Assembly (NCBI GenBank): GCA_927797885.1
Contig: OV696605.1
Coordinates: forward strand, 62,001-126,000
Length of the DNA: 64,000 nucleotides
Direction of reading: 5' to 3'
Origin: Gloeomargaritales cyanobacterium VI4D9
GTDB lineage: Bacteria; Cyanobacteriota; Cyanobacteriia; Gloeomargaritales; Gloeomargaritaceae
Below, piece after piece: positions 3,705 through 13,840 of the stretch. Positions within the stretch are counted from its first letter, which is position 1, and each line of letters opens with the position of its first letter. Below the pieces are notes generated by a model, which was not told the origin of the DNA, searched no databases, and saw only the letters and a list, made by a program, of their open reading frames with translations. A program made the position numbers and the translations under genes.

Positions 3705-4352
3705 AGTTGCCGTAGATGAAACAGCAACCTGGGAGGGCATGGAGAGGAAAGTTGCATGGAGTTTACAAGGGAAAAAAGTTTATAGTTATCGCCAGAAAAA
3801 CAAGGGTCAGAAATACACGTTAATCGGTGCTATATCTGTGGAGGGCGTTGTTTGTCATAAAATCATCAAAGGCTCCATGAAGAAACAGGATTTTTTAGAA
3901 TTTGTGAAAACAGAATTATGCCCAAAATTAAATGAGAAGAAGGTGGTAATTATGGACAACTTGAATAGTCATAAAGCCATAGAAGTACAACAGATGATTA
4001 GCCAGACCGGTGCTCGTCTATTGTATCTCCCTGTGTATTCACCAGAATTTAATCCAATGGAAATGATGTGGTCAGTTCTAAAGAATTTTATTCGACAGTT
4101 TCATGATTCACCAGTAAAGGATATACAGTCAATTATCCAAGCATCTTTGTTATTGATTAATCCTTCTTCTTTTGCAAATTGGTTTACCAAATGTTGCTAC
4201 TGTACCCCATAATAAAGGAAAAGACTGTATTATCTTGTTATTCATGGGGTATGTTAGGGCAATCAGGTGCTGGTGGTGCCAGTCGAGAGAGATACCCCTT
4301 ATTATGGGTTTATGATGCCAAGATAATTCTGAGCAAATGGTGGGGTGAGGGG

Positions 4353-8210: not shown

Positions 8211-8370
8211 AAATCATCCACACTCACAGTTCCGATGAGACGGCCATATCCAAAAGAACCACATCCGGCGGCTGTGCCCCTGTGACCCCGGTTCTCATTC
8301 TGCCGATTTATTTTTGGTAAAATCAACTATAATTAAACAAAGCGTTACAAACTCTCTCAGGAGCGGGTCT

Positions 8371-9336
8371 ATGTTGTTGCCAGTCATGGAAGCGGCGGTT
8401 TTGCCTCGGGACTTGGCGGGGGCGGTGCAGGCACTCAAGCGGGAATTGCGGGCGGTGATTTTGGCGCACTATTATCAGGAACCCCAGGTGCAGGACATTG
8501 CCGATTATGTGGGGGATTCCCTGGGCTTGTCCCGGCAGGCCGCTCAAACCGAGGCGGATGTGATTCTTTTCGCCGGGGTGCATTTCATGGCGGAAACGGC
8601 TAAGATTCTCAATCCTGAGAAGCAGGTTTTGCTCCCGGATTTGGCCGCTGGTTGTTCCTTGGCGGATACCTGTCCCCCTGAAGAATTTGCTGAATTCAAG
8701 GCTCGTTATCCCGACCATTTAGTAATTTCTTATATCAACTGCTCGGCGGCAATTAAGGCCATGAGCGATATTATTTGCACCAGTTCCAATGCGGTAGCGA
8801 TTGTGCAACAAATCCCCCCGGATCAACCCATTTTATTTGCCCCCGATCAAAACTTAGGTCGCTATGTGATGCAACAAACCGGGCGGGAAATGGTACTCTG
8901 GCCGGGGAGTTGTTTGGTGCATGAAACCTTTTCCTATCAACAATTGGTAAAGCTGAAAGTCCGTCATCCCCAAGCCAAAATCATTGCCCACCCGGAATGT
9001 GAAACCCCGGTTTTAGGGCTGGCGGATTATATTGCGTCCACCAGTGGATTACTCAAATATATTCAGCGGGACACAGCCCAGGAATTTATCGTGGTAACAG
9101 AACCGGGAATTATTCACCAAATGCAAAAAGTGGCACCGGAGAAAACATTTATTCCTGCCCCTGCTAACAATGGTTGTGCCTGTAATGAATGCCCATTTAT
9201 GCGCTTGAATACCTTAGAAAAAGTCTATTTAGCTTTGCGGGATCGGCAACCGGAAATTACTTTAACCGAGGAGGTACGCTTGGCGGCGTTGGCACCTTTG
9301 GAACGGATGTTGGCAATGAGTCAGGGGATTCGGTGA
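8371..9336 (+). CDS. nadA: Quinolinate synthase NadA
   Basis: Condenses iminoaspartate with dihydroxyacetone phosphate to quinolinate in NAD biosynthesis, using a 4Fe-4S cluster. The ATG at 8371 has a good ribosome site (AGGAG, 8 nt upstream); an upstream in-frame ATG at 8314 lacks one. From this start the protein has 321 residues. Family motifs: [56 protein letters not shown] and the C-terminal [12 protein letters not shown]. Cluster-ligand cysteines are among the conserved Cys in these motifs. No nadB or nadC neighbour is present. Confidence 0.95.
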
Positions 9337-9413: not shown

Positions 9414-10772
9414 CTAATTTCCCACCCCGTACCACTGTTGGGGCGTTTGGGGGGGACGCTGGGATGGCTTGGTCGCCGCCGGGGCGTAGAAACTTCCCAC
9501 ACTGGGTTCCGCCCGCCGTTCTAGCCGAGGGGCTGGCTCGTAAAATACGAGGGTTCGCCAGTGGTACACCGCTTGATACAGGGTGGTTTTCACCCCATTG
9601 ACCCCCTGTAGGGATGGGGCGTGCCAACCCCGCACCGGTTCGTAGATGGCTTCCGTGCCTTGGGGTGTGAGGGCGGGAGCGGGTACCAAGCGTGGCTCGT
9701 ACACCACATCCAGGAGGGCTTGGGGTTCACATTGGAACTGGGGTTGGTACACCGCCTGGGCTTCCGCCCGCCAAGACCGGAACATTTGCCCCACATCCAG
9801 CCCCATCGCCCGCTGGAAATGCCATAGCCCCCCTTGCAGGAAAAAGAAGGCTAGGTAAAAGTGGGCATTTGCCAACCACACCCGGGACGAATAGCCCCCC
9901 GTGCCCGTCGGGTCGAAGTAGTAGGGCGTGAACTGCGACTTGAGTTCCAGAGCAGGGCCGTAAAATTCCACCGGGTAGGCGAGGGTATTAAACCCGCAGT
10001 AGTAGGAAGCGGCAAACCCCGCCAGGGCAATCCCAAACAGGGAATAGCTCAAAATCCCATCGGCGGAAAACAAAAAGCGGTTTTTCACCCAACCAAAAGG
10101 CGGCACCAGGATATGCCACGTCCCCCCCAAAAACAACAGCAATGCCACAAGGATATGCCCACCCACCAGGTCTTCCAGGTTATTCACATCAAACAGATGG
10201 GTGCGGTAATCCCACAGGGCAAATACATCTAAATTTGGCTGGCTCACCACCCGCACCTGCCCCAAGGTGGCATCGTACAAACCACCGAAAAACATGGCTT
10301 TGGCAACCAAAAGAACGGCACCAAACCCCAAAATTAACAGGTGGTGCCCCAAAATGAATCCCAACTTCGCCGCATCATCCCAGCGAAAATGAAATTTGCC
10401 CACCGGCGGTCGGGACATTTCCAAACTAGCGGGTAGTTTTTGCCGATGGAACCAGGCACCCCACGCCAATACCCCGGCGGCTACCAGATGAAAACCCGCC
10501 ACCGCCACCAACGGAAACGTATTGACAATCTGCCCGCCCTTGCCCACGCCCAGCCCCAAGGTCGCCAAGTGGGGGAGCAAAATTAACCCCTGTTTGTACA
10601 TCGGGAGCGTGGGGTTATACTTTGCCAATTCAAACAGGGTAAAGGCACCCGCCCAGAGCATGATCAATGCCCCCTGCGCCACGTGTGCCACAATAAACGT
10701 ATTGGATTGGTGAATAAACCGGGCATTACCCGCCCACCAAGGATAGGGGGACAGGCTGGAATTTCGTTTCAT
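9414..10772 (-). CDS. isiX: CP43-like (Pcb/IsiA family) chlorophyll-binding protein with proline-rich tail, IsiX-like
   Basis: 452 residues from the ATG at 10772, which has AAGG seven bases upstream; an in-frame ATG at 10799 is less likely. The first 340 residues match the six-helix chlorophyll-a antenna family of IsiA/Pcb/CP43: WWAGNARF near the start, FLGGTWHI, NAHFYLAFFFLQGGLWH, and many membrane His residues suited to bind chlorophyll. The large CP43 lumenal loop is absent. The last 110 residues are not a PsaL domain. They are soluble, Pro-rich and repeat an aromatic-Tyr-x-Pro motif (VYQP, VYEP, IYEP, FYEP, FYAP). Position 3' of the far-red-type allophycocyanin pair points to IsiX of the low-light (LoLiP) gene cluster rather than iron-stress IsiA, which normally sits with flavodoxin. 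Family certain, subfamily inferred from context. Confidence 0.8.
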   Translation of the reverse strand: MKRNSSLSPYPWWAGNARFIHQSNTFIVAHVAQGALIMLWAGAFTLFELAKYNPTLPMYKQGLILLPHLATLGLGVGKGGQIVNTFPLVAVAGFHLVAAGVLAWGAWFHRQKLPASLEMSRPPVGKFHFRWDDAAKLGFILGHHLLILGFGAVLLVAKAMFFGGLYDATLGQVRVVSQPNLDVFALWDYRTHLFDVNNLEDLVGGHILVALLLFLGGTWHILVPPFGWVKNRFLFSADGILSYSLFGIALAGFAASYYCGFNTLAYPVEFYGPALELKSQFTPYYFDPTGTGGYSSRVWLANAHFYLAFFFLQGGLWHFQRAMGLDVGQMFRSWRAEAQAVYQPQFQCEPQALLDVVYEPRLVPAPALTPQGTEAIYEPVRGWHAPSLQGVNGVKTTLYQAVYHWRTLVFYEPAPRLERRAEPSVGSFYAPAATKPSQRPPQTPQQWYGVGN

Positions 10773-10803
10773 AACAGCACCTTTTGCATGAATAAACATG
10801 AGT

Positions 10804-10951: not shown

Positions 10952-11437
10952 TTAGGTCAAACCGGCGATGATGTGATCCAGATAGACTGCGAGTTCCTGA
11001 CCCGCTTCCGCCCCCACGCTGGCATTGAGCACTTCTTTCATCGCATTTAGGGCTTCCACCACCCGGTCAATGGGCACCCCCAGCGCCGTGTAGGTTTCTT
11101 TCAAGCCATTCAATACCCGCTCATCCAGAATGGACGCATCCGCCGCCAACATGGCATAGGTGGCATAGCGCAAAAAGTAGCTCAAATCCCGCAAACAAGC
11201 CGCATAGCGACGGGTCGGGTACATATTTCCCCCCGGCAGGGTAATGTCGCCGTAGAGCAAACTTTTCGCCACCGTCTTGCTAATAATGTCACTGGCGGTC
11301 GCACTAATGATACCGGCGGCTTTGACCCGCATAGTACCCCGTTGGAAGTATTTATTGAGTTGATCCAAGGCGGCACTATTGAGATATTGCCCCTGCTCAT
11401 CGGCGGGGTTAATCAGGGCAGTAATCGTATCTTGCAT
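10952..11437 (-). CDS. apcB3: Allophycocyanin beta-type subunit, ApcB3-like
   Basis: 161-residue phycobiliprotein, the normal ApcB length. The chromophore site is intact: [16 protein letters not shown] places Cys at position 81 and the usually methylated Asn at 71. Compared with core ApcB the sequence is clearly diverged ([36 protein letters not shown]). A good ribosome site (GAGGAG) precedes the ATG. Immediately upstream on the same strand is an ApcD-like gene and downstream a Pcb-like gene. This order fits apcD4-apcB3-isiX, whose ApcD4/ApcB3 products are reported to form low-light allophycocyanin nanotubes. That it is the special paralogue, not the housekeeping ApcB, is inferred from divergence and context. 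Confidence 0.8.
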
Positions 11438-11557: not shown

Positions 11558-12031
11558 TTAAAATGCACGAATCAAACGGTCAAAATAGGGAGCGGCTAAC
11601 GCCATTTCTTCCGCAGACATCAGACCAGCGGCTACTTCCTTGAGACTCGCCATCGCCATCCGCAAATTGGCTAAAGGCACCCCCAAAGATACATACATTT
11701 CCCGCATCCCATTCAAGCCAATATCTTCCAAAGGTTTATCATTCCCAGCCAAGACACAATAGCTCACCAAACGGATGTACCACCCCTGATCCCGTTGGCA
11801 GAGGGCGGTTTTTTGAGCATTGCCCCGATTGCTGGGAGTATTGGGACATTTTGCCCAAAAACGCTTGCTCCCTTCCTCCACAATCTTCTTTTCGTTGGCG
11901 GCGAGTTTTTCTGCCACCCGAATCCGCAATGCCCCCTTACTGAAAAACTCTTCCAATTTGTTCAATTCGGTACTGCTGAGGAACCGTTCAGCAGCGTCCG
12001 ACTGGGCGATCACCTGCGCGACAAGACTCAT
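11558..12031 (-). CDS. apcD4: Allophycocyanin alpha-type subunit of the far-red ApcD clade, ApcD4-like
   Basis: 157-residue alpha-type phycobiliprotein. Chromophore-region sequence CPNTPSNRGNAQKTALCQRD gives the bilin-binding Cys at position 78, aligned to Cys81 of core subunits. The short indel and the following QGWYIRLVSYCVLAGN stretch are typical of the ApcD2/3/4 paralogues that bind phycocyanobilin in red-shifted form. Ordinary ApcA and ApcD have GGNAYG at the same place. It is the first gene of apcD4-apcB3-isiX, 120 bp before apcB3. I see no clear ribosome site before the ATG. The subgroup number is inferred from its partners; the far-red-type clade is fairly sure from the motif. Confidence 0.82.
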   Translation of the reverse strand: MSLVAQVIAQSDAAERFLSSTELNKLEEFFSKGALRIRVAEKLAANEKKIVEEGSKRFWAKCPNTPSNRGNAQKTALCQRDQGWYIRLVSYCVLAGNDKPLEDIGLNGMREMYVSLGVPLANLRMAMASLKEVAAGLMSAEEMALAAPYFDRLIRAF

Positions 12032-12060
12032 GGGTTTTGATTAAGATAATTGGACTACAG

Positions 12061-12089
12061 ATAACACAATAAAATGAAGCCTAAAGCAA
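12061..12089 (-). promoter_or_regulatory. Candidate promoter of apcD4-apcB3-isiX
   Basis: On the minus strand TTGCTT (12089-12084) and TGTTAT (12066-12061) are 17 bp apart, an acceptable sigma-70-type pair placed 30-58 bp before the apcD4 start. This is pattern matching only. Confidence 0.3.
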
Positions 12090-12165
12090 CGGAACACATT
12101 ATGAAGAAAAAGTTGTGATTTGAAATAAATGTGCAACAAACAAACGGCGGTTCATGTATTACGAA

Positions 12166-12203
12166 TTGTGTGACAAATCTGTGTGACAAAATTGTGTGAC
12201 GAA
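12166..12203 (-). promoter_or_regulatory. Three direct 13-bp repeats upstream of the apcD4 operon, candidate operator
   Basis: Read on the minus strand the units are TTCGTCACACAAT, TTTGTCACACAGA and TTTGTCACACAA, end to end with a 13-bp period. They lie about 135-170 bp before the apcD4 start and 77 bp or more upstream of the candidate -35 box. Tandem sites this far upstream suit an activator. The factor is unknown. Confidence 0.5.
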
Positions 12204-12242
12204 CACTTCAGGGGTTGCTTCGTTAATCGCGGCAATGGCTCC

Positions 12243-12605: not shown

Positions 12606-12670
12606 TAACATTATAACTTTTAAACCCCCTTCTATTTTGGCTAATGCAGGGTTCATGGCAGAATGAAACT

Positions 12671-13840
12671 ATGATTTACCTGGATTACAGTGCCACCACG
12701 CCCCCCCATCCCCAGGTGATCGCCCGGGTCAGCGAGGTTTTGGCGCAGGAGTGGGGCAACCCCAACAGTATTCACCAGTACGGGCAACGGGCGGCTTTGG
12801 CGGTGGAACGGGCACGGCTGGCAGTGGCGGCTTTAGTGGGGGTTACGCCGGAGGAAGTTATTTTCACATCCGGGGGCACCGAAGCCAACCACCTCGCCAT
12901 TTTTGGCATCGCCCAGCAGTACACCTATCCCCAACACATCATGACTTCGGCGGTCGAACATCCGGCCACAAGTGCCCCTTTGGCAGCGCTGGCGCAACGG
13001 GGTTGGCAGATTACCATCTTGCCGGTGGATGCGTGGGGACGGGTTGACCCGGAAACCCTGCGGGCACACTTGCAACCTAACACAGTTCTTGTCAGTATTA
13101 TTTATGGACAAAGTGAAGTAGGGACGTTGCAACCCATTGCGGAAATTGCTCAGATTTGCCGTACCCGGGGTATTGTGTTCCACACCGATGCCGTTCAGGT
13201 GGTGGGGCGTTTGCCGGTGGATGTCCCCAGTTTGGGCGTGGATTTACTTTCTTTATCTGGGCACAAATTTTATGCGCCCCAGGGGTGTGGGGCGTTGGTG
13301 GTGCGGCGGAGTGTGGATGTGAGGCCCTGGTTGTATGGCGGGGGGCAGGAAGGGGGCAAGCGTTCGGGAACGCCGCCGGTGGCTCTATTGGCGGGTTTGG
13401 GGGTGGCGGCGCAGTTAGCCCAGACGGAATTTTTGCCCCAAGTGTCCCAGGTGCGGGCGTTACGAGATTATCTGTGCGCTCGGTTGCAGGAATTGCCGGG
13501 GTTGCGCCTCACCGGCTCCTGGGTGCACCGTTTACCCCACCATGTCAGCGTGGTCTGGACTGGTGGTGATGGGAACCACACGGGCAAAACGTTAGTACAC
13601 TATCTCAGCCAACGGGGGGTCTGCGTAAGTTCCGGTTCCGCCTGCGCCAGTGGCAAAACCCAACCCAGTCCGGTGTTGCAGGCGATGGGTTATGATGACC
13701 ATCTGGCTCGTTGCGGGTTGCGGTTTAGTCTCAGCCATGGAACCACTTATGCCGAAATTGACCAAGCTGTTACTGTTTTGGGGGAAGTGTTACAGCAGTT
13801 GACCCCTGCCCTATCCTGCATCCATAGTAGTTTTAGTTAA
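12671..13840 (+). CDS. Cysteine desulfurase (IscS/NifS type)
   Basis: PLP enzyme that takes sulfur from cysteine for Fe-S clusters and thio-modification. I start it at the ATG at 12671 (MIYLDYSATTPPHPQV), the usual family N-terminus; an upstream ATG at 12644 adds nine residues. From 12671 it is 389 residues. The PLP lysine is in SLSGHKFYAPQGCG, the His that stacks on PLP in TSAVEHPATSAP, and the catalytic Cys in SSGSACASGKTQPS. The active-site segment is of the IscS/NifS class I type. Cyanobacteria carry several paralogues; which one this is cannot be told from the sequence alone. Confidence 0.9.
   Translation: MIYLDYSATTPPHPQVIARVSEVLAQEWGNPNSIHQYGQRAALAVERARLAVAALVGVTPEEVIFTSGGTEANHLAIFGIAQQYTYPQHIMTSAVEHPATSAPLAALAQRGWQITILPVDAWGRVDPETLRAHLQPNTVLVSIIYGQSEVGTLQPIAEIAQICRTRGIVFHTDAVQVVGRLPVDVPSLGVDLLSLSGHKFYAPQGCGALVVRRSVDVRPWLYGGGQEGGKRSGTPPVALLAGLGVAAQLAQTEFLPQVSQVRALRDYLCARLQELPGLRLTGSWVHRLPHHVSVVWTGGDGNHTGKTLVHYLSQRGVCVSSGSACASGKTQPSPVLQAMGYDDHLARCGLRFSLSHGTTYAEIDQAVTVLGEVLQQLTPALSCIHSSFS

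Follow-up and report, generated by a model that had tools for sequence, protein, structure and literature searches.

The locus described here raises the question of what is done by the long soluble tail of IsiX, an antenna protein that is encoded beside far-red allophycocyanin genes. The window analyzed, the whole stretch of 64,000 nucleotides from a 3.16-Mb cyanobacterial genome (Gloeomargaritales cyanobacterium VI4D9), holds apcD4, apcB3 and isiX as one operon on the minus strand (Table 1). The 461-residue product of the isiX ORF (10799..9414) matches TIGR03041 at 396 bits (cut-off 335 bits), the IsiA chains of the PDB match its residues 18-339 (E 1e-125, ~55-60% identity), and six helices are present in its AF2 model. 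An in-frame ATG nine codons downstream (10772-10799, minus strand) fits the start in relatives better, and the protein may be 452 residues long. The best PDB match of ApcD4 is the helical far-red allophycocyanin nanotube (8DDY; E 3.5e-88), and ApcD4 of Gloeomargarita sp. SKYG116 is 92% identical to the window ApcD4. The operon lies between a nadA-like gene (8314-9336) and a cysteine-desulfurase-like gene (12644-13840), both named from their translations; elsewhere in the window, an ORF at 3739-4212 (plus strand) resembles an IS630-type transposase, as judged by eye from its translation. Immediately 5' of apcD4 is a non-coding block in which the window has three copies of GTCACACA at 13-nt spacing, compared with one or two in relatives; it is possibly a low-light promoter with a regulator site.

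Proteins of this kind have been described before, and the window IsiX shares with the LoLiP IsiX of Synechococcus/Thermostichus A4, A14 and A1463 (the last compared by description) the IsiA-like six-helix domain, the apcD4-apcB3 neighbors and the size of the extension, which is 115 residues here and ~100-127 there (PMC4477158, PMC10038336). Unlike the Thermostichus LoLiP cluster, which includes the photoreceptor gene lcyA, the window operon has no LcyA gene among the neighboring genes inspected; as LcyA is reported to be missing in H. hongdechloris too, we treat it as non-essential for membership of the IsiX group. Olsen et al. (2015) reported that IsiX is longer at its C terminus by nearly 100 residues (PMC4477158). 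Gisriel et al. (2023), who gave the length of this extension as 127 residues and regarded it as what chiefly sets IsiX apart from IsiA, proposed that it either runs through the FRL-AP (ApcD4-ApcB3) nanotube and acts as a ruler or is wrapped around the tube (PMC10038336). IsiX and FRL-AP copurify, and tubes produced recombinantly in the absence of IsiX vary in length (PMC10038336). The central idea of the original prediction, that the tail could bind the phycobiliprotein assembly or photosystem I (PSI) at several points, is therefore not new. We found no mention of a Tyr repeat in the papers on IsiX and FRL-AP that were consulted, and the LoLiP IsiX papers mention neither such a repeat nor tail-only genes.

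The tail begins where IsiA (CP43', 342-358 residues), which has the six-helix domain in common with IsiX, comes to an end. Whereas an extra membrane helix was suggested for the LoLiP extension (PMC4477158), the sequence and the AF2 prediction of IsiX (27 sequences), in which residues 349-461 have pLDDT below 50, point to a disordered soluble tail. It is found once in the host genome, whose second IsiA-type antenna (a 346-residue frame at G000:C1:1685920) lacks it, and its profile has no match in the PDB. The IsiA-PsaL fusions (7Y3F, 9ZJT) also carry a C-terminal addition on an IsiA-type domain, but in them it is a folded membrane subunit without similarity to the tail; their chains align over the antenna domain only, with matches ending at residue 341, and a PsaL domain is absent from the IsiX C terminus, in agreement with the original prediction.

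Table 1. Features of the isiX operon in the window (minus strand) and positions of the tail-only isiX genes in their own loci (L numbers). Fractions refer to the non-redundant set of 34 full-length IsiX sequences.
Feature	Position	Strand	Remarks
apcD4, far-red allophycocyanin alpha subunit	11558..12031	-	best PDB match is nanotube structure 8DDY
apcB3, far-red allophycocyanin beta subunit	10952..11437	-	
Operon upstream block, 1-3 copies of GTCACACA	12035..12205	-	conserved over six Gloeomargarita-genus loci
isiX, CP43/IsiA-type six-helix chlorophyll antenna domain (residues ~18-339) plus tail	9414..10799	-	TIGR03041, PDB IsiA matches
C-terminal tail, residues 347-461, predicted disordered, Tyr ladder	9414..9760	-	AF2, alignment
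VYQP, Y351	9741..9752	-	Tyr 34/34; Q next in 33/34
VYEP, Y367	9693..9704	-	Tyr 34/34; Y351 exactly 16 residues earlier in 34/34
IYEP, Y386	9636..9647	-	Tyr 34/34; +2 Pro 28/34
LYQAVY, Y408 and Y412	9564..9581	-	Y408 34/34, Y386 22 residues earlier in 32/34; Y412 31/34
FYEP, Y420	9534..9545	-	Tyr 34/34; Y408 12 residues earlier in 32/34
FYAP, Y438	9480..9491	-	Tyr 34/34
WYG, Y457	9426..9434	-	C-terminal Tyr 29/34; mostly VYEP or FYEP in relatives
Tail-only isiX genes	L118:7407-7940, L119:7179-7700, L120:7179-7700, L091:7621-8142		six-helix domain lost in frame

The 115 tail residues contain five aromatic/aliphatic-Tyr-x-Pro motifs (at Y351, Y367, Y386, Y420 and Y438, with successive spacings of 16, 19, 34 and 18), just as the original prediction had them, where 0.25 hydrophobic-Y-x-P motifs would be expected (p = 5e-6 for at least five, from 200,000 shuffles of the tail). 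Three further Tyr that had escaped it, in LYQ (Y408), VYH (Y412) and the C-terminal WYG (Y457), belong to the same ladder, and each of the eight tail Tyr has a V, I, L, F or W directly before it, where 1.8 such cases would be expected.

When this tail is compared across apcD4 loci, 31 of them taken from whole genomes and 32 named ones from a species collection, it becomes apparent that the repeat is real and that the family feature is the Tyr itself. Every isiX gene that is readable to its end beside apcD4 has a tail, and Tyr residues are the most conserved positions within it (Table 1). The common context is hydrophobic-Y-(Q/E)-x-P, in which the Pro shifts between +2 and +3 or disappears; the Pro part of the predicted motif is thus not conserved. 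Strict hydrophobic-Y-x-P was rejected as a family-wide motif, since 5 of 41 tails have none and the rest have one to six, while the Tyr persists, and the count of five is restricted to a few Gloeomargarita-type sequences. Even the most divergent tails, those of Gloeocapsopsis and Chlorogloeopsis, keep the same Tyr; in these two loci (L097:7424-8803 and L126:7438-8838) isiX is encoded on the other strand and runs toward apcD4-apcB3. In the complete genome of Synechococcus sp. SynAce01 (L124:7182-8701) a frameshift in the antenna domain splits isiX, with the tail frame open and its Tyr kept.

Three of the distances between Tyr are conserved more strictly than the residues that fill them. The Y351-Y367 interval never departs from 16, its 15 intervening residues being on average 30% identical, and the intervals Y386-Y408 (22) and Y408-Y420 (12) are each kept in 32 of the 34 sequences; spacer identity within these three near-fixed intervals is 0.30-0.45. 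Other distances vary (Y367-Y386, 19-23; Y420-Y438, 17-29; 4-39 residues after the last Tyr). The tail of full-length relatives evolves with a dN/dS of ~0.2 (0.20-0.25). One tail (L085:8998-9351) carries a 177-nt tandem duplication in exact register, 95% identical, by which 59 residues are repeated along with their Tyr, and that of L096 has an older, partial duplication; tail length is therefore evolvable by units.

We then asked which genomes carry the tail. Among 390 genomes of the class, the tail profile matches 32 and ApcD4 proper (at least 67% identity, E <= 4e-67) is found in 32, with 31 common to both. The two exceptions are contig ends: in G612 the tail is present and apcB3 runs off the contig, and in G617 the contig ends just past apcB3 of an apcD4-apcB3 pair. 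Tail and apcD4-apcB3 thus coincide in 31 of 31 decidable genomes. Where the best match is another far-red type of ApcD (~50-57% identity, E 1e-48 to 1e-56; for example G491, G519 and G591) the tail is absent, and no genome among the 390 that has IsiA without apcD4 has a tail. The prediction that the tail is limited to apcD4-apcB3 genomes is borne out, and neither of the patterns that speak against it, a tailless apcD4-linked IsiX or a tail in a genome without apcD4, was seen. The tail is functionally linked to FRL-AP.

The tail also occurs without the antenna. In the Myxosarcina MAG GA_180221 (L091/L119), Pleurocapsa sp. CCALA 161 (L120) and Pleurocapsales LEGE 10410 (L118), the first 28 residues of IsiX are fused to the region after helix 6, giving a protein of 173-177 residues that has no match in Pfam. 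These genes adjoin apcD4-apcB3, downstream of genes for phycocyanin, linker proteins and a ferredoxin-dependent bilin reductase, and no full-length isiX was found elsewhere in the three genomes. The Myxosarcina MAG contains an IsiA-like antenna fragment with an internal stop (G070:C76:114625-115140). Whole IsiX is kept in a relative of the same genus (G655) and in Hyella, and in the ApcB3 tree the three tail-only genomes cluster, nested among bearers of full-length IsiX (support 98/90); on this tree the tail-only gene has a single origin. An assembly artefact was rejected, given the identical deletion in three separately assembled genomes and this single origin.

Nor is it likely that these genes are neutral relics. 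L118 and L119 differ by 35 substitutions and by three indels, each of a length divisible by three, with no stop, and in a neutral simulation the combination of this small number of amino-acid changes with the lack of a stop has P = 0.004. All 13 tail Tyr are kept in this pair, and both Tyr of the L119 N-terminal stub are changed in L118. The tail dN/dS of 0.43 in this pair is above that of full-length relatives, which indicates that constraint is relaxed here but present. Because the antenna was deleted and the tail kept beside apcD4-apcB3, the partner of the tail can be argued to be the phycobiliprotein; the tail-only genes favor phycobiliprotein binding over PSI binding via the antenna.

We therefore consider it probable that the tail serves the far-red allophycocyanin assembly as a linker that is both disordered and multivalent; its direct binding to ApcD4-ApcB3, like a position inside the tube or a role in tube length, is what we infer. 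In such an arrangement ~8 Tyr at fixed spacing, all with hydrophobic-Tyr-Q/E surroundings, would anchor the tail to successive ApcD4-ApcB3 subunits, and the anchored tail would connect the far-red phycobiliprotein with the IsiX antenna in the membrane and, by extension, with PSI. A disordered region intolerant of insertions between its anchors would fit a chain that runs along a regular surface. The tail is dispensable for nanotube assembly, since tubes also form when IsiX is missing (PMC10038336). When ApcD4, ApcB3 and IsiX of Nodosilinea P-1105 were modeled with AF2 as a single in-frame read-through chain (pTM 0.38), the tail was predicted to stay disordered and undocked, a result that counts against a linker but comes from a weak and uninformative test.

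The ruler proposed by Gisriel et al. (2023; PMC10038336) is a stricter form of the linker explanation: the tail would occupy the lumen of the tube, and the protomer count would be determined either by how long the tail is or by how many anchors it has. The near-fixed Tyr-Tyr spacings suit it, and so does a simple calculation. The 105-124 residues that span Y351-Y457 would extend over ~350-410 Å, which exceeds the 104-135 Å of a tube of 10-13 protomers and, for a straight tail, is ~3 times the length of the 13-protomer tube (135 Å). In the published helix seven protomers occupy 72.6 Å (10.4 Å rise, 103 degrees, 36.3 Å pitch), and a tail wound on a wall of 15-18 Å radius, a value that is assumed, would use 26-30 Å per protomer and reach ~12-16 protomers, compared with the 10-13 seen. 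This geometry, on the assumed radius, is compatible with threading of the lumen or with wrapping around the outside. However, most intervals past Y420 differ in length, and the authors themselves state that particle selection influenced the tube lengths they observed (PMC10038336). We regard the ruler as possible but somewhat doubtful.

Three other explanations are less probable. The tail might bind PSI or another thylakoid partner so as to position IsiX, with the phycobiliprotein link no more than regulatory co-occurrence; IsiX is, after all, related to IsiA, which rings PSI. However, IsiA sits in the solved PSI supercomplexes without any tail, IsiA-bearing genomes that lack apcD4 have none either, and three genomes keep tail and apcD4-apcB3 in the absence of the antenna domain, which together make this explanation unlikely. 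A role in assembly, in which the tail brings in freshly synthesized ApcD4/ApcB3 or the bilin lyase that acts on them, and not the mature tube, would be served by the same apcD4-apcB3 linkage and by the bilin reductase and phycocyanin linker genes that adjoin the tail-only operons, but in a heterologous host FRL-AP acquires its full complement of chromophores even when IsiX is missing (PMC10038336), and we think this less likely still. Finally, if the tail were an inconsequential Pro-rich extension that spread as operons were transferred, it could well be disordered and variable at its very end, as it is, yet it would hardly keep its Tyr in all lineages, its spacing fixed and its dN/dS at ~0.2; this is very improbable.

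A linker of this kind would resemble the phycobilisome linkers (PF00427, PF01383) and CpcL in being a linear organizer of stacked phycobiliprotein, and an analogy to CpcL-like attachment to PSI has been drawn (PMC10038336). The phycobilisome linkers, in contrast, are folded domains, to which the disordered repeat has no sequence similarity, and neither linker domain was matched in the window proteins or the tail-only protein. We can therefore suggest, as an idea with slightly less than an even chance of being correct, that the tail represents a separate class of phycobiliprotein linker: a disordered ladder of ~8 Tyr at fixed spacing that organizes helical far-red allophycocyanin, usually fused to an antenna, duplicable by units, and freed as a soluble protein in Pleurocapsales by in-frame loss of the antenna.

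What is new here is the Tyr ladder with its fixed spacing, the duplication of the tail and the tail-only genes, which make the published tether or ruler model testable. The discoverers of the far-red nanotubes asked how these are attached in vivo and what limits their length there; the invariant Tyr are defined targets for mutation, the tail-only proteins provide naturally occurring soluble constructs for binding studies and cryo-EM, and the naturally duplicated tail of L085 is a ready test of length for the ruler. IsiX is an antenna used in dim far-red light, and some species have dropped that antenna yet kept its tail.
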